A DNA stretch of 64,000 nt, from assembly GCF_014200595.1 (NCBI RefSeq), contig NZ_JACHCG010000004.1, forward strand, positions 124,001-188,000, written 5' to 3'. The stretch's first letter is position 1, and each line of letters begins with the position of its first letter. This document shows positions 3,431 to 64,000 of this stretch, one piece after another. Made by a program: the position numbers and the translations under genes. The notes under the pieces are model-generated. The model was not told the DNA's origin. It did not search any database and saw nothing but the letters and a program-made list of their open reading frames with translations. Source of the DNA: Pedobacter cryoconitis (GTDB lineage Bacteria > Bacteroidota > Bacteroidia > Sphingobacteriales > Sphingobacteriaceae).

Positions 3431-3443
3431 ATCTAAGTTTTTG

Positions 3444-3514
3444 CACGGGAACAAGGATTCGAACCCTGATCAAAGGTTTTGGAGACCTCTATTCTACCGT
3501 TGAACTATTCCCGT
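3444..3514 (-). tRNA. tRNA-Trp (CCA)
   Basis: A 71-nt cloverleaf on the minus strand. The acceptor ACGGGAA pairs with TTCCCGT, and the discriminator is G, as usual for tRNA-Trp. The anticodon loop CTCCAAA has CCA at positions 34-36, and the T-arm GGTTCGAATCC is intact. No CCA end is encoded. It lies between tuf and secE, a conserved placement in Bacteroidota. Confidence 0.96.
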
Positions 3515-3556
3515 GTATAAGAATCAACCTCTGAAGGTTAATCAAACATTTTTAGA

Positions 3557-3592
3557 ACAAAGTACCCAGACTATAACGTCCGGGCACTTTGT
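3557..3592 (-). terminator. Imperfect hairpin after tuf
   Basis: ACAAAGT at 3557-3563 pairs with ACTTTGT at 3586-3592. Inside it CCC pairs with GGG and GAC with GTC, separated by single mismatches. On the minus strand it is followed by TTCTAAAAA. It lies 44 bp after the tuf stop and before tRNA-Trp, so it may terminate part of the tuf transcript while some readthrough feeds tRNA-Trp-secE-nusG. Confidence 0.5.
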
Positions 3593-3635
3593 ATTATTAT
3601 TTAATTGCTTAGCGACCCGAAGGACGGTTAAGTAA

Positions 3636-4823
3636 TTATTTTACAATTTCAGTTACCTGACCAGCACCTACTGTTCTACCACCTTCACGGATAGCGAAAC
3701 GAAGTCCTTTTTCCATTGCGATTGCGTTGATCAATTTAACATTGATTGTAACGTTATCACCTGGCATAACCATTTCAGTTCCTTCTTGAAGAGTGATCTC
3801 TCCAGTAACGTCTGTGGTACGGAAATAGAATTGTGGACGGTATTTGTTAAAGAATGGAGTGTGACGTCCACCTTCAGCTTTTGATAATACATAGATCTCA
3901 GCTTTGAAATCTGTGTGAGGAGTTACAGAACCTGGTTTACAGATAACCATACCACGACGGATATCAGTTTTCTCAATACCACGTAATAATAAACCTACGT
4001 TATCACCTGCTTCACCATAATCAAGGATCTTACGGAACATCTCAACACCTGTTACAGTTGATTTAAGATTTTCTGCACCCATACCTAAGATCTCAACAGG
4101 ATCTCCAGAGTTGATTACACCACGCTCAATACGACCAGTTGCAACAGTACCACGACCAGTGATCGAGAATACATCTTCAACAGGCATTAAGAAAGGAAGC
4201 TCAGTTAAACGTGGAGGGATTGGAATGTAGCTATCTACAGCATCCATTAATTCCATGATTTTAGCAACCCATTTCTCATCGCCATTCAATCCACCTAAAG
4301 CAGAACCTTGAATAACTGGGATATCATCACCTGGGAAGTCATAGAAAGATAATAATTCACGAACTTCCATCTCTACTAATTCTAGTAATTCAGGATCATC
4401 AACCATATCCACTTTGTTCATGAAAACCACCAATGAAGGTACACCTACCTGACGAGCCAATAGAATGTGCTCACGAGTTTGTGGCATAGGACCATCTGTA
4501 GCCGCTACAACGATAATAGCACCATCCATTTGCGCCGCACCTGTAACCATGTTTTTCACGTAATCCGCGTGACCTGGACAGTCAACGTGAGCATAGTGAC
4601 GGTTAGCAGTTGAATACTCAACGTGTGCAGTGTTAATAGTGATACCTCTTTCTTTTTCCTCTGGAGCAGAGTCAATCGAATCAAATGAACGCGCCTCAGA
4701 TAAACCAGCATCAGATAACACTTTAGTGATAGCTGCTGTTAAGGTTGTTTTACCGTGGTCAACGTGACCGATAGTGCCGATGTTTAAGTGCGGCTTGCTG
4801 CGGTCAAACTTTTCTTTTGCCAT
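3636..4823 (-). CDS. tuf: Translation elongation factor EF-Tu
   Basis: A 395-residue protein of family length. G1 is GHVDHGKT (about residues 19-26), the switch I region ends [10 protein letters not shown]3 is DCPGH and G4 is NKVD. Domains 2 and 3 end at [12 protein letters not shown]-Tu carries aminoacyl-tRNA to the ribosome. It is followed by tRNA-Trp-secE-nusG and preceded by a four-tRNA cluster, the usual Bacteroidota order. No strong promoter was found in the 127 bp upstream, so co-transcription with the tRNAs is likely. Confidence 0.99.
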
Positions 4824-4950
4824 GTTTTTATACTTATTAGTAGGTTAACTTTTATTTTTAATTATTGTTTTGATACAATTCAATACAAAAAACCTTGTTC
4901 ATTCTGGGCATAATGCCAGATTTAACAAAGCTTTTTTATCTTTATTCCTG

Positions 4951-5022
<72 letters not shown>

Positions 5023-5102
5023 TTTTTTATTCTCTTCACAATCTTCAATACCGGTCCGGCATTTAAACTGTGACCATTATGCCGACTGCTCTTTGAATCA
5101 AG

Positions 5103-5175
5103 AGCGAAAGACGAGGTTCGAACTCGCGACCTATAGCTTGGAAGGCTATCGCTCTACCAACTGAGCTACTTTCGC
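5103..5175 (-). tRNA. tRNA-Gly (UCC)
   Basis: A 73-nt cloverleaf. The acceptor GCGAAAG pairs perfectly with CTTTCGC. The anticodon loop CTTCCAA has TCC at positions 34-36. The T-arm is GAGTTCGAACCTC. It reads GGA and GGG codons and belongs to the four-tRNA transcript upstream of tuf. Confidence 0.96.
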
Positions 5176-5194
5176 TTTTATTATTATTATAAAG

Positions 5195-5277
5195 TGGGGG
5201 GAGAAGGATTCGAACCTTCGAAGTCTTGCGACAACAGAGTTACAGTCTGTCCCATTTGGCCACTCTGGTATCCCCCC
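5195..5277 (-). tRNA. tRNA-Tyr (GUA)
   Basis: An 83-nt class II tRNA with a long variable arm. Acceptor GGGGGGA pairs with TCCCCCC and the discriminator is A. The anticodon arm ACAGA-CTGTAAC-TCTGT gives GTA. It lies 41 bp from the next tRNA-Thr in the same orientation. Confidence 0.96.
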
Positions 5278-5318
5278 ATTTCTCCTAAACCGCCACATAT
5301 CAAATGCGGGTTTAAAAG

Positions 5319-5391
<73 letters not shown>

Positions 5392-54111: not shown

Positions 54112-54612
54112 CTAAATTTTGGAATTTTTATCAAATAAGTTACTGATGATGGATTCAGTCTCAGGATGAGTAATAACCGGCTGTTTAATGACATAGTCTG
54201 TAGCAAGTTGCGTGAGCACGGTAGAAAGCGTATTTATGCCCCAGTGTTCACTGTATTTACCGTTTACAATCTTTACAATATCAATGACCTGAATGGCAAC
54301 TTTTTTTCCGGTAGGCGGCATTCCCATGAAAGTACCGTTGTGTGTTCCTGTAATTGTTTTACGGGTAGTCACCAGCTCTCCTTCTGCAATCTGATCATAG
54401 ATCGTAACTTTAAGGTCAGGAAAGGCGGGTCTTAAGACTTGATTAAATGTATAAATCATTCCTCCCGGACCGTTATCACTTCCTTCAGGGGCGGTATGGT
54501 TAATAAACTGGTCATCCATCAATTCTTTAAAGCTTTCCAGGTTACCTTGTTCAATGACTTCGAGATTAAAGCGCTTGACTACTGTTTTGTTTTGTTCAAG
54601 TTGAGTTTCCAT
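54112..54612 (-). CDS. Ester cyclase / SnoaL-like polyketide cyclase family protein
   Basis: A 166-residue protein. The SnoaL pattern is NKTVVKRFNLEVIEQGNLES, FKELMDDQFINHTAPEGSDN, LRPAFPDLKVTIYDQIAEGE and GTFMGMPPTGKKVAIQVIDI. Members form an NTF2-like cone and mostly have no assigned reaction. It is 65 bp upstream of the GMC gene on the same strand and may share its transcript. The C-terminal 20 residues are poorly conserved. Confidence 0.82.
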   Translation of the reverse strand: METQLEQNKTVVKRFNLEVIEQGNLESFKELMDDQFINHTAPEGSDNGPGGMIYTFNQVLRPAFPDLKVTIYDQIAEGELVTTRKTITGTHNGTFMGMPPTGKKVAIQVIDIVKIVNGKYSEHWGINTLSTVLTQLATDYVIKQPVITHPETESIISNLFDKNSKI

Positions 54613-54775
54613 CTTTCTATTTGTTATGGGAACCTTAAATTGGTTCGGTATTCTACAAACAAAGATAAGGCCGGATAGGTTCTGCCTATCAGGTTTAGTA
54701 TTAATTTTCTACAATGGTTTTATGAATGATTTAAAATATCATTAGCTTTATCAGGCTGTTTATTTAGCATTATTT

Positions 54776-54997
54776 ATGGCCGAACTGCTCTTATTAATGG
54801 GTTTACTATTACCACAAACTATTGCCGGGATTTTTGCAAAAAGCCAGGGAAGAAGTTTTTGGTTCTGGTTTTTCATTTCCTTTCTTATTCCAATCATCTC
54901 TTTAGTAGTGTTATTATTTCTGGACGATAAGAGTGAGGGTAGTGATACTGGCTTCAAGCTCGCAGACCATGTAAAAAGAGATAAAGAGGAAGTATAA
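54776..54997 (+). CDS. Small membrane protein of unknown function
   Basis: A 73-residue protein. It has two hydrophobic stretches (MAELLLLMGLLLPQTIAGIF and SFWFWFFISFLIPIISLVVL) joined by a short KSQGR turn, and a charged C-terminal tail (LADHVKRDKEEV). The layout resembles small two-helix membrane proteins with a GR-x-FWFWF motif, of unknown role. Its TAA stop lies within the 8-bp flanking duplication of the mobile element that begins at 55000, so the element sits immediately behind the gene. Confidence 0.6.
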   Translation: MAELLLLMGLLLPQTIAGIFAKSQGRSFWFWFFISFLIPIISLVVLLFLDDKSEGSDTGFKLADHVKRDKEEV

Positions 54998-55436
54998 AAG
55001 GATCAAGTCATCAACTTTTGGAGCAGGTTTTTTTTTAAGCATAAATTTTTGACATGCTCAACAGAAAGTCTTTGAGATCACGGATGCTCTTATGCCTGTG
55101 GAAGTTGCGCTGAAAGCTTTCAATTTGCATGGGAATGACCCGGCCGAAACAAGGCCGGGCTGTTAGTAAATAAATTCAAAATAGCTAAATAATAACTCTA
55201 TACCGGCCGGGTACTGCCTGAGTACTGCCCGGGTACTCGTTAGGGTAAGAGCAATGCTAAAGTAACGTGAGTCCATGGCAAGTCCAAGTCAAAACAACTA
55301 GTTGAAATGACTTAGAGTACGTATGCTTAAAGGCTGTTTACAACCTGGTATCACTCCGATCTCTATTCAGGCACAACTTAGGTCATAACCGGATGAAGAT
55401 TAATGAAATTATAATTTTCCCTTTGACTAACCCACA

Positions 55437-55480
55437 GACAACTGCGGACAATTGCAGACAGCTGCGGACAATTGCGGACA
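55437..55480 (+). repeat. 10-bp tandem repeat array inside element copy 1
   Basis: Four successive 10-mers, GACAACTGCG, GACAATTGCA, GACAGCTGCG and GACAATTGCG, followed by GACA. Each has a CAATTG- or CAGCTG-like palindromic core, phased by about one helical turn. The array is preserved in copy 2 with point changes. Confidence 0.85.
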
Positions 55481-55546
55481 TTTTTTACGCATCCGGATAA
55501 TCTTTAACGCGAATAGCTTACATTGGTGGAAAAGCATTTATTTATT

Positions 55547-55627
55547 ATGGGAAGTTTAACGGGTAAATTTTCAAAGGGAATCCTGGGCGGTTTCATTTTT
55601 AAAGCAGCAGTTTGGAGTACATTATGA
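55547..55627 (+). pseudogene. Truncated small ORF, DUF6266-like N-terminus (copy 1)
   Basis: ATG at 55547 opens 26 codons beginning MGSLTGKFSKGILGGF and ending in a stop at the right terminal repeat. The start resembles the N-terminus of DUF6266 proteins (of the MGK..KGILGGFSGKVG type) as I remember it from Bacteroidota; the rest of such a protein, about 200 residues, is missing. Copy 2 has the same ORF with a different continuation, so copy 1 is probably internally deleted. Confidence 0.5.
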
Positions 55628-55678
55628 ATTGATCCCTATAAAATGAATTTTGGATCAGTAAAAAATTCAGGCAGAAAA

Positions 55679-55712
55679 CAAAAAAGCTCTATTTCGTATG
55701 AAATAGAGCTTT
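55679..55712 (-). terminator. Intrinsic terminator of tRNA-Phe copy 1
   Basis: AAAGCTCTATTTC (55683-55695) pairs perfectly over 13 bp with its complement at 55700-55712 around GTAT. The minus strand then reads TTTTTTG. It starts 9 bp past the tRNA 3' end. Confidence 0.9.
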
Positions 55713-55720
55713 CTAAGTTG

Positions 55721-55793
55721 TGGTGTGGGCCGGGATCGAACCGGCGACACAAGGATTTTCAATCCTTTGCTCTACCGACTGAGCTACCGCACC
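55721..55793 (-). tRNA. tRNA-Phe (GAA), copy 1
   Basis: A 73-nt cloverleaf. Acceptor GGTGCGG faces CCACACC, with one C-A mismatch at pair 5-68. The anticodon arm AAGGA-TTGAAAA-TCCTT gives GAA. The T-arm is GCCGGTTCGATCCCGGC and the discriminator is A. It is identical to copy 2 at 63409-63481, including the mismatch. Confidence 0.95.
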
Positions 55794-55844
55794 ATCCTTT
55801 TATTAACATGATTTCAATCATGCCCCACCTCGGTTGGTGGGCTG

Positions 55845-55875
55845 CAAATGTAGTTTCTTTTTTTGGATTTCAAAA
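55845..55875 (-). promoter_or_regulatory. Promoter of tRNA-Phe copy 1
   Basis: TTTTG (55871-55875), 18 bases, then TACATTTG (55845-55852) on the minus strand. Between promoter and tRNA the leader forms a CCCACC/GGTGGG hairpin. The same promoter sequence precedes copy 2. Confidence 0.8.
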
Positions 55876-55909
55876 TGGTTAGTGCATTTTATTTAAAATA
55901 AATGCATTT

Positions 55910-56290
55910 TTATTCTTCTGAGTCAGAATTTACAGGCTCCAGTGTCTTCAACTCTTCTTCAGTAAACAGCCTTGAATGTATGATAAACCCCATATCTAAA
56001 GTTGATTCAAGGGAGAAACCAGCGGCCCTCCCTTCCATAACATCTAAAGTAAGCTGGGTGTGTTTCCAGTATTCAAACTGATCTCCAGCCATATAAAACT
56101 TGCATCCTTCAATTTCTCCAAGACAAACATCGTTAGATCCGATCAGAAAACCTCCTTTTTCAAAACAATGTGGATAGGACCCTTCACAACATCCCCCGCT
56201 CTGATGAAAAAATAACTCACCATATTCTGCTTTCAACTGATTGATTACACCTATGGCTTTTTCTGTCACTAAGATTCTCTTGCTGCTCAT
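55910..56290 (-). CDS. DUF779 family protein
   Basis: A 126-residue protein with the pattern RILVTEKAIGVINQLKAEYG, FFHQSGGCCEGSYPHCFEKG, GSNDVCLGEIEGCKFYM and GRAAGFSLESTLDMGFII. The family has conserved cysteine/histidine residues (CCEGSYPHC) and is often encoded beside aldehyde dehydrogenases, but its role is not established. Here it follows an alcohol dehydrogenase (gap 2 bp) and an aldehyde dehydrogenase on the same strand. Confidence 0.88.
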   Translation of the reverse strand: MSSKRILVTEKAIGVINQLKAEYGELFFHQSGGCCEGSYPHCFEKGGFLIGSNDVCLGEIEGCKFYMAGDQFEYWKHTQLTLDVMEGRAAGFSLESTLDMGFIIHSRLFTEEELKTLEPVNSDSEE

Positions 56291-56292
56291 GA

Positions 56293-57360
56293 TTATTTAG
56301 CAATTTTAACCAATATTTTCACCTGTGTAGGATTGTTCAGCAAGGCTTCAAATCCTTCTTCTACGATATTTTCAAGCTCAATTCTTGCAGTTACCAGTTT
56401 TTCAACAGGCATTCTGCCAGTATGAATCAGCTGAATTACTTCTGGAAAGATGTTCCGGTAAGCTATAGTCCCCTTAATGGTAATTTCACGCACAACCTGA
56501 TCAAAAGCGTTCGTTGTGACCGGTTTTCCAAAAAGAGCGACTAATAAAGCAGTACCTCCATTTTTTAAACTAGCAATTCCAGCATCATAAGTTGCCTGCA
56601 CACCTGCCGCATCAATATAAATATCCGCACCACCAGCAGTTAATTGCTTAACCTGAGCTGACACATCTTTCTCTTTTCCATTGATGACCTGGGTAGCGCC
56701 AATTTCAAGCGCTTTCTCTAAACGTTTTTCGGCAACGTCTACAACAATCACGGTTGCAGCACCAGCTGCAATTGCAGCCTGTACACAGAGTAACCCAATC
56801 GGTCCGGCCCCAAATATAACACAAGACTGTCCGAGCTTTAATCCACTGCTTTTTACCGCATATACAGCTACCGCAGCTGGTTCAACCAATGCTCCCTGCT
56901 CAAAGCTCATGCTGTCAGGAATAGGATGTACCATATAATCTTCTACGACAACAAACTTCGCAAAACCACCGTTCGAGGTCAGTCCGACAAAGCCCAGTGG
57001 TTCTGACAGATTATACTCACCAGTCACAATAAAGGGGCTTTCAGGATTTCTAAAAAGAGGTTCTACAACTACTCTGTCCCCTACTTTCACTTGCCTGACT
57101 TCTTTTCCAACTTCGGTAACCACGCCCGAGAATTCATGACCTAAAGTGGTTACGCCAATATGTCCGTTTAAAGGATAGGGCACATCAGCAGGAATCAACA
57201 TAGGCCCGTGTGCATATTCATGCAAATCAGAACCACAAATACCCGCGTACTGCACTTCTATTTTCACTTGTTTACTACCAGTGGAGGGTATTGGGGCATC
57301 TTCTACTCTAATATCTTTAGCGGCATACCAACGGGCAGCTTTCATAACAGGAACTGACAT
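56293..57360 (-). CDS. Zinc-type alcohol dehydrogenase, 2,3-butanediol dehydrogenase-like
   Basis: A 355-residue MDR-family enzyme. Catalytic zinc ligands are C in YAGICGSDLHEY and H-E in TTLGHEFSGV. The nucleotide-binding motif is VIFGAGPIGLLCVQAAIAAG. Overall pattern is closest to (R,R)-butanediol dehydrogenases. The four cysteines of the structural zinc loop are absent (EPLFRNPESPFIVTGEYNLS), as in some members of that group. It lies between the DUF779 and aldehyde dehydrogenase genes and probably supplies the aldehyde or ketone step. Substrate is inferred. Confidence 0.85.
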   Translation of the reverse strand: MSVPVMKAARWYAAKDIRVEDAPIPSTGSKQVKIEVQYAGICGSDLHEYAHGPMLIPADVPYPLNGHIGVTTLGHEFSGVVTEVGKEVRQVKVGDRVVVEPLFRNPESPFIVTGEYNLSEPLGFVGLTSNGGFAKFVVVEDYMVHPIPDSMSFEQGALVEPAAVAVYAVKSSGLKLGQSCVIFGAGPIGLLCVQAAIAAGAATVIVVDVAEKRLEKALEIGATQVINGKEKDVSAQVKQLTAGGADIYIDAAGVQATYDAGIASLKNGGTALLVALFGKPVTTNAFDQVVREITIKGTIAYRNIFPEVIQLIHTGRMPVEKLVTARIELENIVEEGFEALLNNPTQVKILVKIAK

Positions 57361-57387
57361 ATATAAAATGGTTTAATAATAATTAAT

Positions 57388-58881
57388 TTAAAAGAACCCT
57401 AGCTTGTTCTTGTCATAAGAGATCAGCATATTCTTAACGCTTCGGTAATGGTCAAGCATCATTTTATGGTTCTCTCTGCCGAATCCGGATTTTTTATAAC
57501 CACCGAATGGCGCATGGGCAGGATAAGAGTGATATTGGTTCACCCATACACGACCAGCCTGGATAGCACGTGGCACCTGATATAACTCATGTGCATCACG
57601 TGTCCATACGCCGGCACCTAACCCATATAAAGTATCGTTTGCAATTTCAATAGCTTCTTCTACTGTTTTAAATGTTGTTACACAAAGGACCGGGCCAAAT
57701 ATTTCTTCCTGAAAAATCCGCATTTTGTTATGCCCTTTAAAGATGGTTGGTTCAATATAGTATCCTGTTTCCAGCTCTCCAGGTAATTTATTGATTCCTC
57801 CTCCGGTCAGTACTTCTGCTCCTTCTTCGATTCCTATTTTGATATAAGATAATATTTTTTGATACTGCTCATTGGAAGTCTGCGCGCCCATCATACTTTC
57901 CTGATCCAATGGGTTTAATGTTTTGATGGCCTTTGTCCGTTCAATAACACGACTGATAAATTTATCATAAAGGCCTTCCTGTATCAATAAACGGGATGGA
58001 CAGGTACAGACCTCACCCTGGTTCAGTGCGAACATCACCGCTCCTTCTACTGCTTTATCAAAGAACTCATCATCCTGAGCGCCTACAGAATCAAAAAATA
58101 TATTTGGTGATTTACCGCCTAACTCCATCGTTGATGGAATAATGTTTTCAGCAGCATATTGCATGATTAAACGACCTGAAGTGGTACTGCCGGTAAAGGC
58201 AACTTTAGAGATTCTTGAAGAGGTAGCCAGTGGTTTTCCGACTTCCAGACCATAACCATTTACAATATTTAATACCCCTGGAGGAAGAATATCACCAATC
58301 AGCTCCATTAAAATAATAATTGATACTGGAGTCTGTTCTGCTGGTTTAACCACCGTACAGCAGCCCGCAGCCAATGCCGGCGCTATTTTCCAGGTAGCCA
58401 TCAGCAAAGGAAAATTCCAGGGTATAATCTGCGCTACAACGCCTATCGGCTCGTGCAGCACGATGCTTACTGTATGTTCATCATGCTCTGCAACAGTACC
58501 TTCCTCGCCTCTGATTACACCAGCAAAATATCTGAAGTGATCTACTACAAGAGGCAAATCCGCAGCTAATGTTTCTCTGATCGCTTTACCATTGTCGATG
58601 GTTTCAACTGTGGCGAGGTAAGTTAAATTATCTTCTATTTTCTGCGCAACTTTCAACAGGATATTACTTCTGTAGGCTGGAGAACTTTTACTCCACGTTT
58701 TAAAAGCTTCGTGTGCGGCATCCAATGCCAGCTCCACGTCTTCTTTACTTGATCTTGCTGCTTTTGTAAATACTTTCCCGTCTACAGGAGATATGTTATC
58801 AAAATAGATACCTTTTACTGGCGGTACAAACTTGCCTCCGATAAAATTATCATAATGAGATTTAAATGCCGGTCTTTCCAT
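57388..58881 (-). CDS. NAD-dependent aldehyde dehydrogenase
   Basis: A 497-residue protein of normal length. The catalytic cysteine is in [16 protein letters not shown] and the general-base glutamate is in [10 protein letters not shown]. Cofactor and fold motifs are [37 protein letters not shown] and [14 protein letters not shown]. It resembles AcoD/acetaldehyde dehydrogenase-type enzymes that are encoded with DUF779. It is the first gene of a three-gene minus-strand operon, with a divergent AraC-type regulator upstream. Confidence 0.93.
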
Positions 58882-58910
58882 GAGGATATGAATTTATGAT
58901 TTGGTTACTG

Positions 58911-58918
58911 CAAACGTA
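58911..58918 (-). promoter_or_regulatory. -7 box of the aldehyde dehydrogenase operon
   Basis: TACGTTTG on the minus strand, a full match to TAnnTTTG, 29 bp before the start codon. There is no TTTG at the usual upstream distance, as expected for a promoter that needs an activator such as the divergent AraC protein. Confidence 0.6.
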
Positions 58919-59002
58919 ACAGCTAATTGAAACCGGAGATAGGACAATTGTAGCAAGTAGTAGCATTATTGTTGCAGAAACGTAAGCGTACTGAAATAAA
59001 GT

Positions 59003-59010
59003 TATATTTG
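59003..59010 (+). promoter_or_regulatory. -7 box of the AraC-type gene
   Basis: TATATTTG on the plus strand, 37 bp before the start codon. The 84 bp between this and the opposite -7 box are the probable operator region for the regulator. Confidence 0.55.
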
Positions 59011-59047
59011 AGTATACGCCCTTAGTACTAACCAAAACCTATAGGTC

Positions 59048-59962
59048 ATGATGCAGCATAAATTAAATCTTGTTGAGCTGAGTAAGGAAGCGAATTTACA
59101 AACCCTGGTAGAAAACAGAACAGCCTATACACTGGAACGCTGTGAGCTGAACGTGTTTGAAACTTATTCTGAGTCGTATAAAGTACCTTTGACTTTCAAT
59201 GATTTTGTCATCACCAGCATGTTGCGCGGTAAAAAGGTAATGCATCTTGGTGATCAGCAGGGTTTCGATTATTTGCCAGGAGAGACTGTCATTGTCCGCC
59301 CTTCCCAAACAATGGAAATAGATTTCCCCGGGGCTTCCGATCACAATCCTGCACAATGTATTGCATTGGCCATAGACAACGACCAGATTAAACAGACTAT
59401 CCGTTATCTGAATGAGTATTTTCCTAAAACTACCGCTGGTCAGCAGTGGTCTTTGAATTATGAGGAATATCATTTTTACAACAATGAAGAGATCTCATTT
59501 TTAATTAATAAGATTATCCGCATTTGTGCGGAGGAGTCAAAAGAGAAAGATGTACTGGCAGATTTGACCTTAAAGGAATTACTGGTCAGGATTATGCAGA
59601 CACAAAATTTAAAGACCATTGGCCGCACTGATACGAATCATAATCCCCTGGCTTTTGTAATTGGTTATATTAAAGCTAATCTGAATGAGAAAATAAGCAT
59701 CAATAGCTTAAGTAGTAAGGCTTGCATGAGCAAAGCTACTTTTTACAGATTATTTAAACGGGAACTCGGTATCAGTCCAAATGATTTTATCTTAACCGAA
59801 AAGATAAACCGCGCGAAACAAATGCTTGCTACACCTGGTTCAAAGATTGCTGCGGTCAGTTATGAGCTTGGATTCAGTGATGCTAATTACTTTATCCGTG
59901 TATTCAAAAAACTTGAGGGTATTACTCCCGGAAGTTATCAATTGCAATTATCTGCGCTATAA
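59048..59962 (+). CDS. AraC-family transcriptional regulator
   Basis: A 304-residue protein. The N-terminal sensor domain (about 1-190) resembles the AraC_N cupin-like region (YKVPLTFNDFVITSMLRGKK, DYLPGETVIVRPSQTMEIDF). The C-terminal double helix-turn-helix (about 205-300) reads LSSKACMSKATFYRLFKREL, INRAKQMLATPGSKIAAVSY and ELGFSDANYFIRVFKKLEGI. It is divergent from the aldehyde/alcohol dehydrogenase operon and is the likely activator of that operon. Confidence 0.92.
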   Translation: MMQHKLNLVELSKEANLQTLVENRTAYTLERCELNVFETYSESYKVPLTFNDFVITSMLRGKKVMHLGDQQGFDYLPGETVIVRPSQTMEIDFPGASDHNPAQCIALAIDNDQIKQTIRYLNEYFPKTTAGQQWSLNYEEYHFYNNEEISFLINKIIRICAEESKEKDVLADLTLKELLVRIMQTQNLKTIGRTDTNHNPLAFVIGYIKANLNEKISINSLSSKACMSKATFYRLFKRELGISPNDFILTEKINRAKQMLATPGSKIAAVSYELGFSDANYFIRVFKKLEGITPGSYQLQLSAL

Positions 59963-60045
59963 TATTACCAGCTTATAAATTTATCAGGAAGTTCTCTTGC
60001 AAAAATTTATTTGCCGGCAAAAATCATATTTAACAAACAATTCAA

Positions 60046-60053
60046 TACATTTG
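60046..60053 (+). promoter_or_regulatory. -7 box of the outer-membrane barrel gene
   Basis: TACATTTG, full match to TAnnTTTG, 34 bp before the ATG at 60087. This excludes the in-frame upstream start at 59997 as the translation start for this transcript. Confidence 0.6.
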
Positions 60054-60086
60054 CGCTCCAAGAAAATAAACCACTTAGCGCTCAAA

Positions 60087-60914
60087 ATGTTATCATATAT
60101 TAAAATTAATTTTATTGCTCAGGCAATTTTTAAATCATCACGTGTTTTTCTTTTAACAACAACATCAATATTATTTCTTATTAATATTGCTTCTGCTCAA
60201 AAAACTAAGGAAACCAATAAACACAGCAAATTTTCTGACTCTTTAAAAAATAAATTAGAAGTTGGTATAGCTGCTGGGTTAAGTTTAAACCACTTCACTA
60301 AAGGACAGCCTCAAACTGGATCAAATACAGGATATACTGCCGGAATTTCAGTTAACTACAAGTTGGTTAAGGAAATAAGCCTGCAATTAGAAGTAAATTC
60401 TTTGCAGCAAGGTGGAAGTATGATCCGTTTCAAGGATGACACGAGGTTTGGTTTACCAGAAAGTTTTGAGACTAAAAATGTGAAGAACAGTTCTTATAAA
60501 CTGAATAGTATCGAGATCCCTCTTTTACTTAATTATACATTTAAGCTTAAACAGCTATGGAAACCTTCGGTCTATGTTGGTGGAAGTTATGCATACACTT
60601 ATAATGTAAACGAACGCTATCAGAAAACCGGCGACCTTCTACCGGGAGAAGATATTATTGCGACAGTTAATGCTTCACAGAATGCGGGCAACTTATTCAA
60701 TGCTTCAAGGTTCAACTTAATAGTAGGCGCGAATTTAAAGTTGCCTTTGACTTCAAGATTCCTCCTGCTTATAGACATGAGATATTTAAATGGCTTGTCA
60801 TCAGCAAGGGACAAATATTCTTATATGGAAAAAGTGGGGTTTGGAACAAATATCAGAGCAAACTCTTTCCTTACAAAACTAGGCATCATTATGCCGCTAT
60901 CAACTCTTAAATAG
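60087..60914 (+). CDS. Outer-membrane beta-barrel protein (PorT/OmpA-barrel type)
   Basis: A 275-residue protein from the ATG at 60087. The signal peptide is the hydrophobic segment VFLLTTTSILFLINIASAQ. The mature part has alternating beta-strand patterns (LEVGIAAGLSLNHFTKG, GYTAGISVNYKLVKEISLQL, IPLLLNYTFKLKQLWKPSVY, FNLIVGANLKLPLTSRFLLL), as in small porin-like barrels of Bacteroidota. It lies 49 bp upstream of a lipoprotein gene and probably shares its transcript. Confidence 0.8.
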   Translation: MLSYIKINFIAQAIFKSSRVFLLTTTSILFLINIASAQKTKETNKHSKFSDSLKNKLEVGIAAGLSLNHFTKGQPQTGSNTGYTAGISVNYKLVKEISLQLEVNSLQQGGSMIRFKDDTRFGLPESFETKNVKNSSYKLNSIEIPLLLNYTFKLKQLWKPSVYVGGSYAYTYNVNERYQKTGDLLPGEDIIATVNASQNAGNLFNASRFNLIVGANLKLPLTSRFLLLIDMRYLNGLSSARDKYSYMEKVGFGTNIRANSFLTKLGIIMPLSTLK

Positions 60915-60963
60915 AGTTCCATTCAATCAAAAAATCCAATTTACTTAAATAAATAAGCATAAT

Positions 60964-62391
60964 ATGAAGCCAAAATTTACTATTTTAACGGTTATAGCGC
61001 TCGCTATTCTGATTGCAGGTTGCAGTAAGGATAAGTTCAACGAGAATGATGCCATCAATGCCCAAAAAGACCTGCTGAATTTAAAATATCAGCATGAACT
61101 TGATCTTGAAATATTAAAACAAAAGGGTGCAACTGCTATGCAGCAATTAATCAATACAGCTGCTCTTGAACAGTTAAAGCTGAATGATAGTTTGAAAATA
61201 AAAAGTAATATCGCTGCTAGAAAGCAAGATTATACGGTAAGAGTTGTTGATGTGATCTCTAATGCTCCACTTGCAGATGCTGATGTTACAGTATCTTCTG
61301 AAGGAAAAATATTCGCAGCAAAAACAAATGCACAGGGTATAGTTACTTTTACAGCCTTATATCTATTCCCAACAAGTACTTTCCTGGTTTCAAAAACCGG
61401 ATACGCTGCAACTCAGATTTCACAACAGTTTGCTGGTAATAGCAATGTGAAATTGTGGAATACTACAGATTTAACAAATGAGATTACTGGTAGTCTTTAT
61501 ATTGAAACAGATTTAACAAATAATATTCCAGAAAAAGTAGGGGCCAAAGTATTAGTGACAGCTGCTGCAAACATTCCTACAAATTCTTCAGAGTCTTATA
61601 CTGTTTATTTTCCAACATATACTGATGCAGCTGGTGTTTACAGTATTAAAGTTCCTGCTGCTCCAAACGGATATACACTTACATTTGAACAAATCTCTGC
61701 CGATCAAAAGCTTTATGTAAACGCAACAGAAGATAATGCTGTAACTTCATTTCCAAGTAGCTTACCAAGGTTAACTACAGTAAAAACTTATTTTAATGTG
61801 AATAGTTACAATGCTCCGGTTCCAGCAGTATATAGCGCTTATTACTTTAAAGCTACACCTGATAAGGCTGGTAAAATTCTATACATTCCAGGAAATACTA
61901 ATTACAGTTATTACAACCAGGTGTTGTTATCTACTTTAGGTGACAAATTTCAGGTAGAAAAACTTAATATCAACAGTACTAATACCCAAAATGGTAATGT
62001 CGACATGGGTTTATATACCTACGATGCCAATACCAAAATTGATGTAGAAATAGTTGACATAACGGGAAATACAATACAATCGGCTCCTAAATTAATGGCT
62101 AACATAGGGTCTAATGGAAAGATAGCTTATACTTACTCTGCTGAAGGTGGAAATGGCTATATTCATCTTAAAAGAGATGATGCCGGTGTTTTAGTACCTG
62201 ACGCTAAAGGAGTTATTTTAAAGGCTGTGCCATATGATTCATACTACTCTGCACTAGGTAATAGTTCAAATCTAAACATAGCATCAAACAGATACGTAAC
62301 CAATAGTTACTTACTAAGTAATAAAGGTGACAAAAAAGTTGTCAACTTTTACTACGGTTCTGGCGATAGCAGAGTAAAACAAGTATACTAG
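60964..62391 (+). CDS. Lipoprotein with carboxypeptidase-regulatory-like domain, function unknown
   Basis: A 475-residue protein. The type II signal ends LAILIAGCSKDKF (lipid Cys at about residue 20). A short coiled coil follows (about 30-85), then a beta-sandwich with the pattern VRVVDVISNAPLADADVTVS, TNAQGIVTFTALYLFPTSTF (about 90-150), as in CarboxypepD_reg domains. The remaining 300 residues are beta-rich and Tyr/Asn/Thr-rich. Probably exposed on the cell surface. I do not recognise a named family. It is followed by a strong terminator. Confidence 0.75.
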   Translation: MKPKFTILTVIALAILIAGCSKDKFNENDAINAQKDLLNLKYQHELDLEILKQKGATAMQQLINTAALEQLKLNDSLKIKSNIAARKQDYTVRVVDVISNAPLADADVTVSSEGKIFAAKTNAQGIVTFTALYLFPTSTFLVSKTGYAATQISQQFAGNSNVKLWNTTDLTNEITGSLYIETDLTNNIPEKVGAKVLVTAAANIPTNSSESYTVYFPTYTDAAGVYSIKVPAAPNGYTLTFEQISADQKLYVNATEDNAVTSFPSSLPRLTTVKTYFNVNSYNAPVPAVYSAYYFKATPDKAGKILYIPGNTNYSYYNQVLLSTLGDKFQVEKLNINSTNTQNGNVDMGLYTYDANTKIDVEIVDITGNTIQSAPKLMANIGSNGKIAYTYSAEGGNGYIHLKRDDAGVLVPDAKGVILKAVPYDSYYSALGNSSNLNIASNRYVTNSYLLSNKGDKKVVNFYYGSGDSRVKQVY

Positions 62392-62420
62392 TTAATAGCC
62401 AACATATTTAGTTTAACATA

Positions 62421-62459
62421 AAAAAAGAGAGGGTTTCCCAGGAAGCCTTCTCTTTTTTT
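62421..62459 (+). terminator. Intrinsic terminator after the lipoprotein gene
   Basis: AAAAAAGAGAGGGTTTCC (62421-62438) pairs over 18 bp, with two G-U pairs, with the arm at 62441-62458, ending in seven T. It lies 30 bp after the stop codon. Confidence 0.88.
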
Positions 62460-62614
62460 ATGTTATGTTTTCCAATATCAAGGGATCAAGTCATAAACTT
62501 GCGGATTAGGGATTAAATTTCAAGTTTTGGGTTTGATATTTTTTGAGTTCAAAGCAACTGGTTAAGATTCTTTAATAAGATGATTACTTCCTGATTTTTC
62601 CAGGCTTGCTACTT

Positions 62615-62767
62615 TTACGAAAGTTCTCTGATGCCTTTTTCGGTTTCCATTGATTGTTTCATTATGCCCGGTACAGAACTTTTGAAACAACCAGTACTCC
62701 AAACTGCTGCTTTAAAAATGAAATCGCCTAGGATTCCCTTTAAAAATTTACCCGTTAAACTTCCCAT
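62615..62767 (-). pseudogene. Truncated small ORF, DUF6266-like N-terminus (copy 2)
   Basis: From the ATG at 62767 the minus strand encodes 50 residues, beginning MGSLTGKFLKGILGDF and ending GIRELS before a stop. It differs from copy 1 by few changes in the first 24 codons and then continues. Beyond the stop, another frame reads FRKSSKPGKIRK, which could be the frameshifted remains of a longer protein. Assignment to DUF6266 rests on memory of the N-terminal KGILGGFSGK pattern. Confidence 0.5.
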
Positions 62768-62834
62768 AATAAATAAATGCTTTTCCATAAATGTAAATCA
62801 TTAATGTTAAAGTGCATCATCAGGAGTAGACAAT

Positions 62835-62878
62835 GTCCGTAATTGTCCGCAGCAGTCTGCAATTGTCCGTAGTTGTCC
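62835..62878 (-). repeat. 10-bp tandem repeat array inside element copy 2
   Basis: On the minus strand, units GACAACTACG, GACAATTGCA, GACTGCTGCG and GACAATTACG, followed by GACA. The period and unit order of copy 1 are kept despite base changes. Confidence 0.85.
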
Positions 62879-63372
62879 ATGCCTTAGTCAAAGGAAAAAT
62901 CATAAGGTTTATGAAGCTTCAGTTAGTTGTGCTTGAGTTGTGCCTGAGTGGTGGTCGGTGTAAGTGCAGGCCGTAACCAGCCCGGGAGTATGACAACTCT
63001 AAGTCATTTCAACTAGTTGTTTTGACTTGGACTTGCCATGCTCTCACGTTGCTTTAGCATTGCTCTTACCCTAACGAGTACTCGGACAGTACTCAGGCAG
63101 TACCCGGCCGATATAGATCTGTTATTTAGCTGTTTTGAATTTATTTACTAACAGCCCGGACTTGTTTCCCCTGAGTCATTCCCATGCAAATTGAAAGCTT
63201 TCAGCGCAACTTCCACAGGCATAAGCGCATCCGTGACAGCAAAGACTTTCTGTTTAGCGTGTCAAAAATTTATGCTTAAAAAAGAGACTGCTTCACAAGT
63301 TGATGACTTGATCCATATCAAGACTTACCCCTGCACAGTATGTTATCCAAAATAAAAAACCTTTGAAAACAA

Positions 63373-63400
63373 AAAAGCTCCAGATTTCTCTGAAGCTTTT
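63373..63400 (-). terminator. Intrinsic terminator of tRNA-Phe copy 2
   Basis: AAAAGCTCCAGA pairs with TCTGAAGCTTTT with one mismatch. The minus strand continues with TTTTTTG. It starts 8 bp past the tRNA 3' end. Confidence 0.8.
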
Positions 63401-63408
63401 AGAAGAAG

Positions 63409-63481
63409 TGGTGTGGGCCGGGATCGAACCGGCGACACAAGGATTTTCAATCCTTTGCTCTACCGACTGAGCTACCGCACC
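63409..63481 (-). tRNA. tRNA-Phe (GAA), copy 2
   Basis: A 73-nt cloverleaf, identical to the copy at 55721-55793, in the same orientation 7.7 kb away. Anticodon GAA; discriminator A; the same C-A mismatch in the acceptor stem. Confidence 0.95.
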
Positions 63482-63526
63482 ATCTTATTTCAACATGTTT
63501 GACCATGTTCCCCTCGGTTGGGAGTG

Positions 63527-63557
63527 CAAATGTAGTTTCTTTTTTCGAATTGCAAAA
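63527..63557 (-). promoter_or_regulatory. Promoter of tRNA-Phe copy 2
   Basis: TTTTG (63553-63557), 18 bases, then TACATTTG (63527-63534) on the minus strand. Spacing and core match the copy 1 promoter. Confidence 0.8.
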
Positions 63558-63692
63558 CTTTTTCTGAAAATAATTTAAAAACCCCTCAGAATTATTTAAA
63601 AAGGCTCTAAATTTGAAATAATTATGCAAGCATAGTATTTTTTGTCTGCTAATTATTTTAACTTAGCATGACTGTAAAAGATTAACCAAATA

Positions 63693-64000
63693 ATGATTTC
63701 ACAAATTCTATTTATAGCAATCACTTTAGCGGCTATCGCCTTATTCAGCTTCAACCTGAAAAAGGTCATCCGTAACATCAGAATTGGTAAAGCGGCAGAC
63801 CGTACTGACCAACCTCAAAAAAGATTGATGACCATGATCAGGGTTGCCCTTGGGCAAAGCAAGATGGTGGTACGTCCAATTCCTGCTGCCCTGCATTTTG
63901 TCGTGTACATTGGTTTTGTGATTATCAATATCGAAGTGCTCGAAATTATGATTGACGGCATGTTTGGCACTCACCGCGTATTTGGCGGGCTGGGCAGCTT
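63693..64000 (+). CDS. Membrane Fe-S oxidoreductase, N-terminal part (cut by window edge)
   Basis: The plus strand from the ATG at 63693 stays open to the window end (102 codons). It has a first transmembrane helix (MISQILFIAITLAAIALFSF), a basic loop (NLKKVIRNIRIGKAADRTDQ), the segment RVALGQSKMVVRPIPAALHF and a second helix (VVYIGFVIINIEVLEIMIDG), followed by FGTHRVFGGLG. I recognise this as the start of the large GlpC/HdrD-like 4Fe-4S membrane oxidoreductases of Bacteroidota that often neighbour electron-transfer genes. The Fe-S motifs would lie beyond the window, so the function is inferred. Confidence 0.75.
   Translation, partial: MISQILFIAITLAAIALFSFNLKKVIRNIRIGKAADRTDQPQKRLMTMIRVALGQSKMVVRPIPAALHFVVYIGFVIINIEVLEIMIDGMFGTHRVFGGLGS

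Follow-up and report, generated by a model that had tools for sequence, protein, structure and literature searches.

Two blocks of the stretch of Pedobacter cryoconitis DNA analysed here (64,000 nucleotides, hereafter the window; C4:124001-188000 of genome G000) are very probably copies of a non-autonomous MITE of the ISL3 family that carries captured host DNA and that would choose its landing sites by transcription termination. This reading builds on the observed anatomy of the copies, their homology, their target duplications and position statistics calculated on predicted terminators. Positions 55000-55635 and 62483-63314 hold the same non-autonomous element, whose ends read GGATCAAGTCATMAACTTG and which is bordered by target duplications of 8 bp (Table 1). 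An earlier note on this DNA had the coordinates, the ends and the opposite orientation of the two copies right, and it correctly took them for two independent insertions, the duplication GTATAAAA/CTATAAAA of copy 1 (7/8) being distinct from ATATCAAG/ATATCAAG of copy 2 (8/8). In the scenario that we propose, an ISL3 element would have shed the greater part of its transposase gene and taken up about 510 bp of host DNA, made up of the leader of a gene and its initial ~57 codons. ISL3 transposase would move the resulting MITE in trans and would recognise something that termination produces, such as an RNA polymerase that has stopped or let go, strained DNA in front of that polymerase, or the hairpin-forming DNA itself.

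Table 1. Position of the two MITE copies, their parts and the neighbouring features in the window
Feature	Position	Strand	Remarks
MITE copy 1	55000..55635	+	636 bp, internally deleted form; ends GGATCAAG...TTGATCC; from aligned copies; right ISL3-derived segment missing except its last ~14 bp
Copy 1 target duplication, left (GTATAAAA)	54992..54999	.	7/8 identical to 55636-55643
Copy 1 target duplication, right (CTATAAAA)	55636..55643	.	7/8 match to the left one
Copy 1 left TIR and decayed 3' end of ISL3 transposase gene	55000..55206	-	Read on the minus strand, frames broken; inner limit approximate; three pieces match ISL3 transposase residues 275-330 (tblastn, E 3e-7)
Copy 1 captured host-gene leader and start	55207..55607	+	80% DNA identity to G000:C1:1369076-1369473 (5' region of the intact gene)
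Copy 1 truncated reading frame MGSLTGKFSKGILGG...	55547..55627	+	26 codons plus stop; what is left of the start of the captured gene; tblastn with the parent protein, 68% (residues 1-19)
MITE copy 2	62483..63314	-	832 bp; orientation opposite to copy 1; from aligned copies
Copy 2 target duplication, left (ATATCAAG)	62475..62482	.	8/8 identical to 63315-63322
Copy 2 target duplication, right (ATATCAAG)	63315..63322	.	8/8 identical to 62475-62482
Copy 2 ISL3 3' end with transposase remnant	63122..63314	+	Remnant ...IRDSKDFLFSVSKIYA* ending at 63279; 73% DNA identity over 164 bp to the G002 ISL3; inner limit approximate
Copy 2 captured host-gene leader and start	62596..63107	-	80.5% identity over 513 bp to L074
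Copy 2 ISL3 5' end and other TIR	62483..62621	.	72.5% identity over 142 bp to the P. quisquiliarum ISL3 end; overlaps the limit of the captured block, boundary uncertain
tRNA-Phe intrinsic terminator beside copy 1 (target feature)	55681..55714	-	Promoter/terminator scan
tRNA-Phe upstream of the terminator of copy 1	55720..55793	-	ARAGORN
Intrinsic terminator left of copy 2 (target feature)	62416..62463	+	Second-tool terminator scan
tRNA-Phe intrinsic terminator right of copy 2 (target feature)	63373..63400	-	Second-tool terminator scan
tRNA-Phe beside copy 2	63408..63481	-	ARAGORN

As judged from its sequence, the element is an ISL3-family MITE, with the broken 3' end of an ISL3 transposase gene on the left and an ISL3 5' end on the right. 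Over its left ~190 bp it resembles an ISL3 3' end (73% over 164 bp, genome G002), and over its right ~140 bp the opposite end of such an element (P. quisquiliarum, 72.5% over 142 bp). The statement of the earlier note that no transposase is present holds for the gene, which is missing, but pieces of the transposase C-terminus (about residues 272-330) can still be read in broken frames. In the long copy L109 (G018) a second small transposase piece lies between the captured block and the right end. Since no intact DDE_Tnp_ISL3 transposase gene was found in the MITE beyond this remnant, we regard the element as an ISL3 derivative and not as an autonomous member. The terminal inverted repeat of the MITE (GGATCAAGTCATMAACTTGTGGA) is ISL3-like when set beside that of the P. 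quisquiliarum ISL3 (GGATCRAGTCAAAAACTTGTGGA). The latter element (L210/L332) is autonomous, 1432 bp long, with GGATCRAGTCAAAAACTTGTGGA ends and GGGATTTG on both sides. The termini, which had been thought to be those of no named insertion sequence, are thus ISL3-family ends, nearly identical in this 1432-bp element. The element is short, lacks a transposase, has terminal repeats and occurs in multiple copies, as is the rule for MITEs; by the size convention, ~926 bp is long for a MITE.

The element gave 24 matches in its own genome, 21 of them of at least 296 bp and 12 of these with both ends recognisable; the 21 include the 5' region of the donor gene itself (L020) and a fragment without element ends (L021). 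When 99 genomes were searched, with at most five candidates scored in each, 10 genomes (own included) showed a match, which was strong only in the own genome, G018 and G022. A search for the terminal motif, covering 145 genomes of the genus, was positive in 13, the own genome among them, and brought in G107 and G172 as further carriers, so that two-ended copies are present in five Pedobacter genomes, with 49 bounded copies in all. Around these 49, the 8-bp duplication, which has the classical ISL3 length (PMC7643977), is perfect in 23, matches at 7/8 or better in 29 and at 6/8 or better in 37. This rate is far above chance and bears out the earlier description of a MITE-like non-autonomous element with TIRs and 8-bp duplications. 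Aligning many copies, as had been suggested, did define the ends and the duplications; it also revealed, however, that copy 1 is internally deleted, the majority consensus from 42 long copies being 926 bp. Insertions common to genomes were seen for own/G107 (L011/L207), own/G022/G172 (L004/L112/L199) and own/G172 (L006/L241), the duplication being the same or nearly so and at least one flank matching, and hence part of the spread of the element is old. An ISL3-sized element of G018 (L127:75-1500) has interrupted a MITE copy within its terminal repeat, with the duplication CAAGTCAT. In the gap of G018 that matches copy 2, another, truncated MITE copy (L444; G018:C1:4160098-4161092) lies beside the same tRNA-Phe gene, with a ~60-bp repeat on each side. 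Six genomes were examined for an uninterrupted copy 1 site, but no such site could be established, the best match (G107, query 15-391) covering little beyond the joint.

The ~510 bp between the ISL3 ends match, at 80-83% identity, the leader and initial ~57 codons of a host gene. Intact copies of this gene are present once in the own genome (G000:C1:1369413-1370189), once in G022 and twice in G018, and their proteins share 92-94% identity. This gene adjoins a DUF6266 gene and hit nothing in Pfam at E 0.001. In the protein collection its product matched nine proteins, among them one from Pedobacter sp. PAMC26386 with 51% identity over the full length. Because these relatives, the full-length match included, assign the N-terminal part to a protein family, capture probably proceeded from gene to element. 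The earlier note had reckoned that membership of the block in a longer conserved gene would count against a mobile element; the ~510 bp do belong to such a gene, but merely as a captured fragment. A host gene fragment thus sits between transposon ends while a related intact gene is present, as in Pack-TYPE elements. Short degenerate repeats of ~10-12 bp, with units such as GGACAATTGC or GTACTGCC that vary from gene to gene, were noticed by eye in the leaders of DUF6266 and donor genes of the own genome (L074:4449-5111, L161, L163 and L164). Pieces of the captured block without ISL3 ends occur at L075:2665-3123 (G000:C2) and at G018:C1:1287407, 1459124 and 1555920. With 89.6% identity to the MITE, against 80.5% for the intact gene, the L075 piece may be nearer the true donor, or else a relic of a MITE.

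Two hybrid elements, L123 (G018) and L202 (G172), join the left end of the MITE to a right end of the resident-ISL3 type and each have an exact 8-bp duplication. They are most simply read as products of an ISL3 transposase that paired an end of the MITE with one of ISL3, and the MITE would thus be moved in trans by such a transposase. The resident ISL3s of G018 have GGATCAATACC ends, and three of the five bounded ones (L079, L083, L127) show a perfect 8-bp duplication, while L089 and L092 are without one. The single near-complete ISL3 of the own genome (L080) has no target duplication and different ends (GGATCAGTGCC), and its main frame counts 299 aa against 330 aa in its relatives; for these reasons the active partner in this strain is only putative.

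According to the earlier note, conservation of the interior hinted at a function. Among 42 long copies, conservation is even, at 0.82-0.97 per 30-bp block outside 691-810, and the captured block does not exceed the ISL3-derived ends; it drops to 0.68-0.79 at 691-810, where the low values probably include copies without that stretch. The divergence of element and flanks was compared in five pairs of shared insertions. In L011/L207 the element (97.5%) falls between its flanks (96.6% and 98.9%, 350 bp each), and it is less conserved than the left flank in L004/L199 (89.9% vs 97.1%) and L006/L241 (92.6% vs 96.6%), two pairs whose right flanks could be aligned only partly or not at all. In L112/L199 the element shows 90.0% against 93.0% and 94.4% for the alignable parts of the flanks. 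In L004/L112 (own/G022) the element reaches 92.1% against 91.8% and 86.1% for the alignable flanks, or 80.1% and 69.7% over 350 bp. When flanks are taken over their full 350 bp (64-81%), the element looks more conserved in both L112/L199 and L004/L112. These comparisons are mixed, and on the whole they suggest no slower change in the element. The truncated frame ranges from 14 to 86 codons among the 31 of 49 copies that have the exact start motif. The promoter motif of the Bacteroidota type, TTTG/TAnnTTTG, is absent from both copies, and a sigma-70 scan over the region found sites no more numerous than in shuffles. Neither copy had an Rfam match at E 0.1 or better, and a scan of 54500-63700 returned two tRNAs and three sub-threshold matches, all of them outside the elements.

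On balance, these data give no clear sign of a block kept for function, and it seems very improbable that the conserved interior is a functional RNA or a regulatory block spread by the element. Such a role would be in keeping with the gene leader and its short repeats, with the gene's promoter if one exists, and with the L004/L112 insertion, where the element surpasses its flanks. Against it stand the even conservation all along the element, the other shared pairs, in which the element lies between or below its alignable flanks (L011/L207; L004/L199), the lack of an Rfam match and the variable length of the truncated frame. A functional RNA in the interior was accordingly rejected as a candidate, with the Rfam matches all lying outside and conservation being of little help. 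That the blocks are old segmental duplications around two tRNA-Phe genes is virtually out of the question, even though both copies adjoin tRNA-Phe and have like flanks (156 bp, 89%). The target duplications differ, which by itself rules out this candidate, and the orientation is opposite; moreover, copies lie at many unrelated loci, each with its own duplication, and a G018 sequence aligns across the site of copy 2 without an element at that point.

We then measured the distance from each bounded insertion to predicted terminators, using flanking DNA only. Terminators were predicted with a home-made scan, a second tool being applied to those of the window. Three sets of insertions were considered: (i) 44 MITE insertions, after L112, L199, L106, L207 and L241 had been dropped as the same insertion in another genome or locus copy, (ii) 42 ISL3 sites of the genus, kept out of 64 loci examined on the basis of 22/24 matching end bases, an accepted end type, a flank of ~100 bp or more and no repeated site, with L294 left out by hand, and (iii) 24 ISL3 sites of other Bacteroidota, for which 80 loci of named ISL3s were reduced to 26 (48 were without clear ends or at contig edges and 6 were from Pedobacter) and then to 24 by dropping L346 and L370 (doubtful ends; neither at 20-60 bp). 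The control consisted of IS256-family insertions of the genus, represented by the 25 of 50 loci with both ends and a duplication; this set was thus selected by duplication, whereas sites entered the ISL3 sets with or without a perfect one. The intergenic background came from the own genome alone (400 kb in 20 stretches, with 5 tRNA genes).

Copy 1 itself lies 35-40 bp downstream of the tRNA-Phe terminator in our own scan. With respect to the nearest terminator edge, 24 of the 44 MITE insertions are at 20-60 bp, none at 1-19 bp and 2 inside a terminator, as against 8.1% of background intergenic positions at 20-60 bp (400 kb of the own genome). Counted behind the T-run, 25/44 MITE, 20/42 genus ISL3 and 13/24 other Bacteroidota ISL3 insertions fall within 20-60 bp, the corresponding local controls being 6.5%, 7.5% and 6.9%, and the mean distance inside this range is 36-39 bp (standard deviation 9-11 bp). 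The pooled profile, in 10-bp bins from 0, reads 1, 0, 12, 24, 20, 9, 9, 4, 2 and 1, the 9 and 4 cases between 60 and 80 bp forming a shoulder. Beside one-directional terminators, 26 insertions at 15-65 bp are on the T-run side and 1 is on the other, and 33 further insertions at this distance are beside two-directional terminators. The excess is robust to terminator cut-offs from 14 to 26 (at 26: 17/44 MITE, 16/42 genus ISL3 and 10/24 other ISL3, with controls of 3-4%), persists when similar loci are collapsed (29/65 clusters) and holds in the subsets with a perfect duplication (11/18, 11/24 and 8/17, respectively). None of the 25 IS256-family insertions of the genus lies 20-60 bp behind a terminator. 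As for the ISL3-type sites (MITE and ISL3), 52 of 110 are without a terminator at 20-60 bp. This directional test superseded an early one on the distance to hairpin centres (27/43 within 80 bp, background 26%). No strong consensus of the target sequence was found, only a mild A+T richness at the duplication, and orientation relative to transcription was not convincing (17 same and 8 opposite among 25). A second ISL3 group of the genus (L306, L308, L311 and L313) has transposase frames of 534-571 aa and mostly GGTTCTTC ends; 0/4 of its insertions are at 20-60 bp, and none shows a full duplication.

The 200 bp 3' of tRNA genes hold 14/44 of the MITE, 23/42 of the genus ISL3 and 13/24 of the other ISL3 insertions, compared with 721 of 32,573 intergenic background positions in the own genome (5 tRNA genes, 400 kb). 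MITE and ISL3 insertions are absent from tRNA genes themselves and from the 200 bp 5' of them, and none of the 25 IS256 insertions falls in the 200 bp 3' of a tRNA gene. Sixteen kinds of tRNA are used as sites; one ISL3 insertion (L078) is near a tmRNA and another (L286) near rRNA genes.

Both the tRNA genes and the survival of insertions offer other ways to account for these positions. That the signal is the tRNA gene and not the terminator, as for the tRNA-directed elements of eukaryotes, seems unlikely to us, despite the large share of genus and other ISL3 insertions behind tRNA genes of sixteen kinds and the weaker terminator excess among ISL3 insertions without a tRNA gene (6/18 genus and 3/11 other at 20-60 bp). 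Twenty-six MITE insertions have no tRNA gene in the 400 bp on the corresponding side, and 12 of them are nonetheless 20-60 bp behind a terminator. At 45 sites where a terminator separates the tRNA gene from the insertion, the distance to the terminator is uncorrelated with the gap between tRNA and terminator (r -0.05 to 0.11), while the distance to the tRNA modestly follows this gap (r 0.33 to 0.46). Four rules for choosing the terminator gave the same outcome, although the two distances have similar spreads (sd 27-29 and 30 bp). The MITE insertions without tRNA and the independence from the gap indicate that the anchor may be the terminator rather than the tRNA. A different account, in which the elements insert at any place and are retained only where a gap behind a gene makes them harmless, appears quite unlikely. 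It draws on the fact that the sites are those retained in genomes and not fresh events; an insertion is safest in a gap behind a gene, and the DNA preceding a terminator is often coding. Yet the peak is narrow (20-60 bp), with next to nothing at 1-19 bp, although such positions are common in the background of convergent gaps. Furthermore, IS256 of the same genus scored 0/25, local controls from the same flanks gave about 7%, and the 200 bp 5' of tRNA genes contain no insertion. Selection against insertions in genes could add to the pattern, but leaves the near-empty 1-19 bp zone unexplained.

We infer that the preference of the MITE and of ISL3 reflects target selection at transcription termination sites, by a mechanism that can be outlined as follows. 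If the target were the DNA in front of an RNA polymerase that has stopped at the T-run, both the near-empty first 20 bp and the peak that follows could be accounted for, the downstream footprint of the enzyme being roughly of this size; alternatively, hairpin-forming DNA may be what is recognised. More tentatively, and as no more than a plausible generalisation, a Bacteroidota clade of ISL3 might read termination, its transposase being led to the DNA immediately in front of a polymerase that an intrinsic terminator has stopped or released; stable-RNA operons would then be its main landing zones, and MITEs would ride along. An ISL3 element of P. aeruginosa has been reported within genes (PMC7643977), and a large survey found ISL3 over-represented between like-oriented genes (PMC9208149), so that the rule need not hold family-wide.

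Both ISL3-linked MITEs (PMC11448079) and gene capture by non-autonomous elements of plants (PMC8903248) are already known. The element shares with ISL3 insertion sequences (DDE_Tnp_ISL3, PF01610) the GGATCA termini, the 8-bp duplication, both end sequences and the transposase remnant, and differs from them in having host DNA between its ends and no transposase gene. A 187-nt MITE of Microcystis aeruginosa, attributed to ISL3, is likewise short and non-autonomous, with ISL3-matching ends and 8-nt duplications, but is much shorter and has other ends (GGCTCTTCG); the main text describing it lacks the word terminator, and the parts consulted describe no gene capture or terminator preference (PMC11448079). 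Like the Pack-TYPE transposons of plants, our element is non-autonomous and amplified with host gene sequence between its ends; unlike these, it is bacterial and carries one captured fragment, not many, in a search that covered this block (PMC8903248). The TIMEs derived from Tn3, with their hybrid forms, are also bacterial miniature elements able to carry other DNA, but belong to the Tn3 and not the ISL3 family (PMC4133298). Yeast Ty1 resembles the present case in its intergenic insertion at stable-RNA genes, yet is a retrotransposon that inserts upstream of the gene through RNA polymerase III (PMC7337890), whereas ISL3 and the MITE are DNA transposons that insert downstream, behind the terminator. 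In Enterococcus faecium, an ISL3-linked insertion in the terminator of an rRNA operon had an 8-bp duplication and ISL3 at one end of the insert; in contrast to our sites it was a single event inside the terminator, and its mechanism was not characterised in that report (PMC11702846). In the literature covered, consulted in part, we found no report of ISL3 targeting terminators or tRNA genes; the pairing of insertion sequences with tRNA genes lay outside that search, and a prior report is possible.

The element represents a bacterial MITE that has amplified a captured host-gene fragment. If the proposed aim behind terminators is true, it would spare genes and could help explain the persistence of ISL3; insertions would mark real transcript ends, a termination-sensing transposase could become a tool, and the system would be a bacterial counterpart of eukaryotic tRNA-gene-directed integration.

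As to the tRNA genes of the window, the two tRNA-Phe genes are 7.6 kb apart and have like 3' flanks, with a MITE copy behind each, and five tRNA genes (Trp, Thr, Gly, Tyr and Thr) are located at positions 3443-5391.
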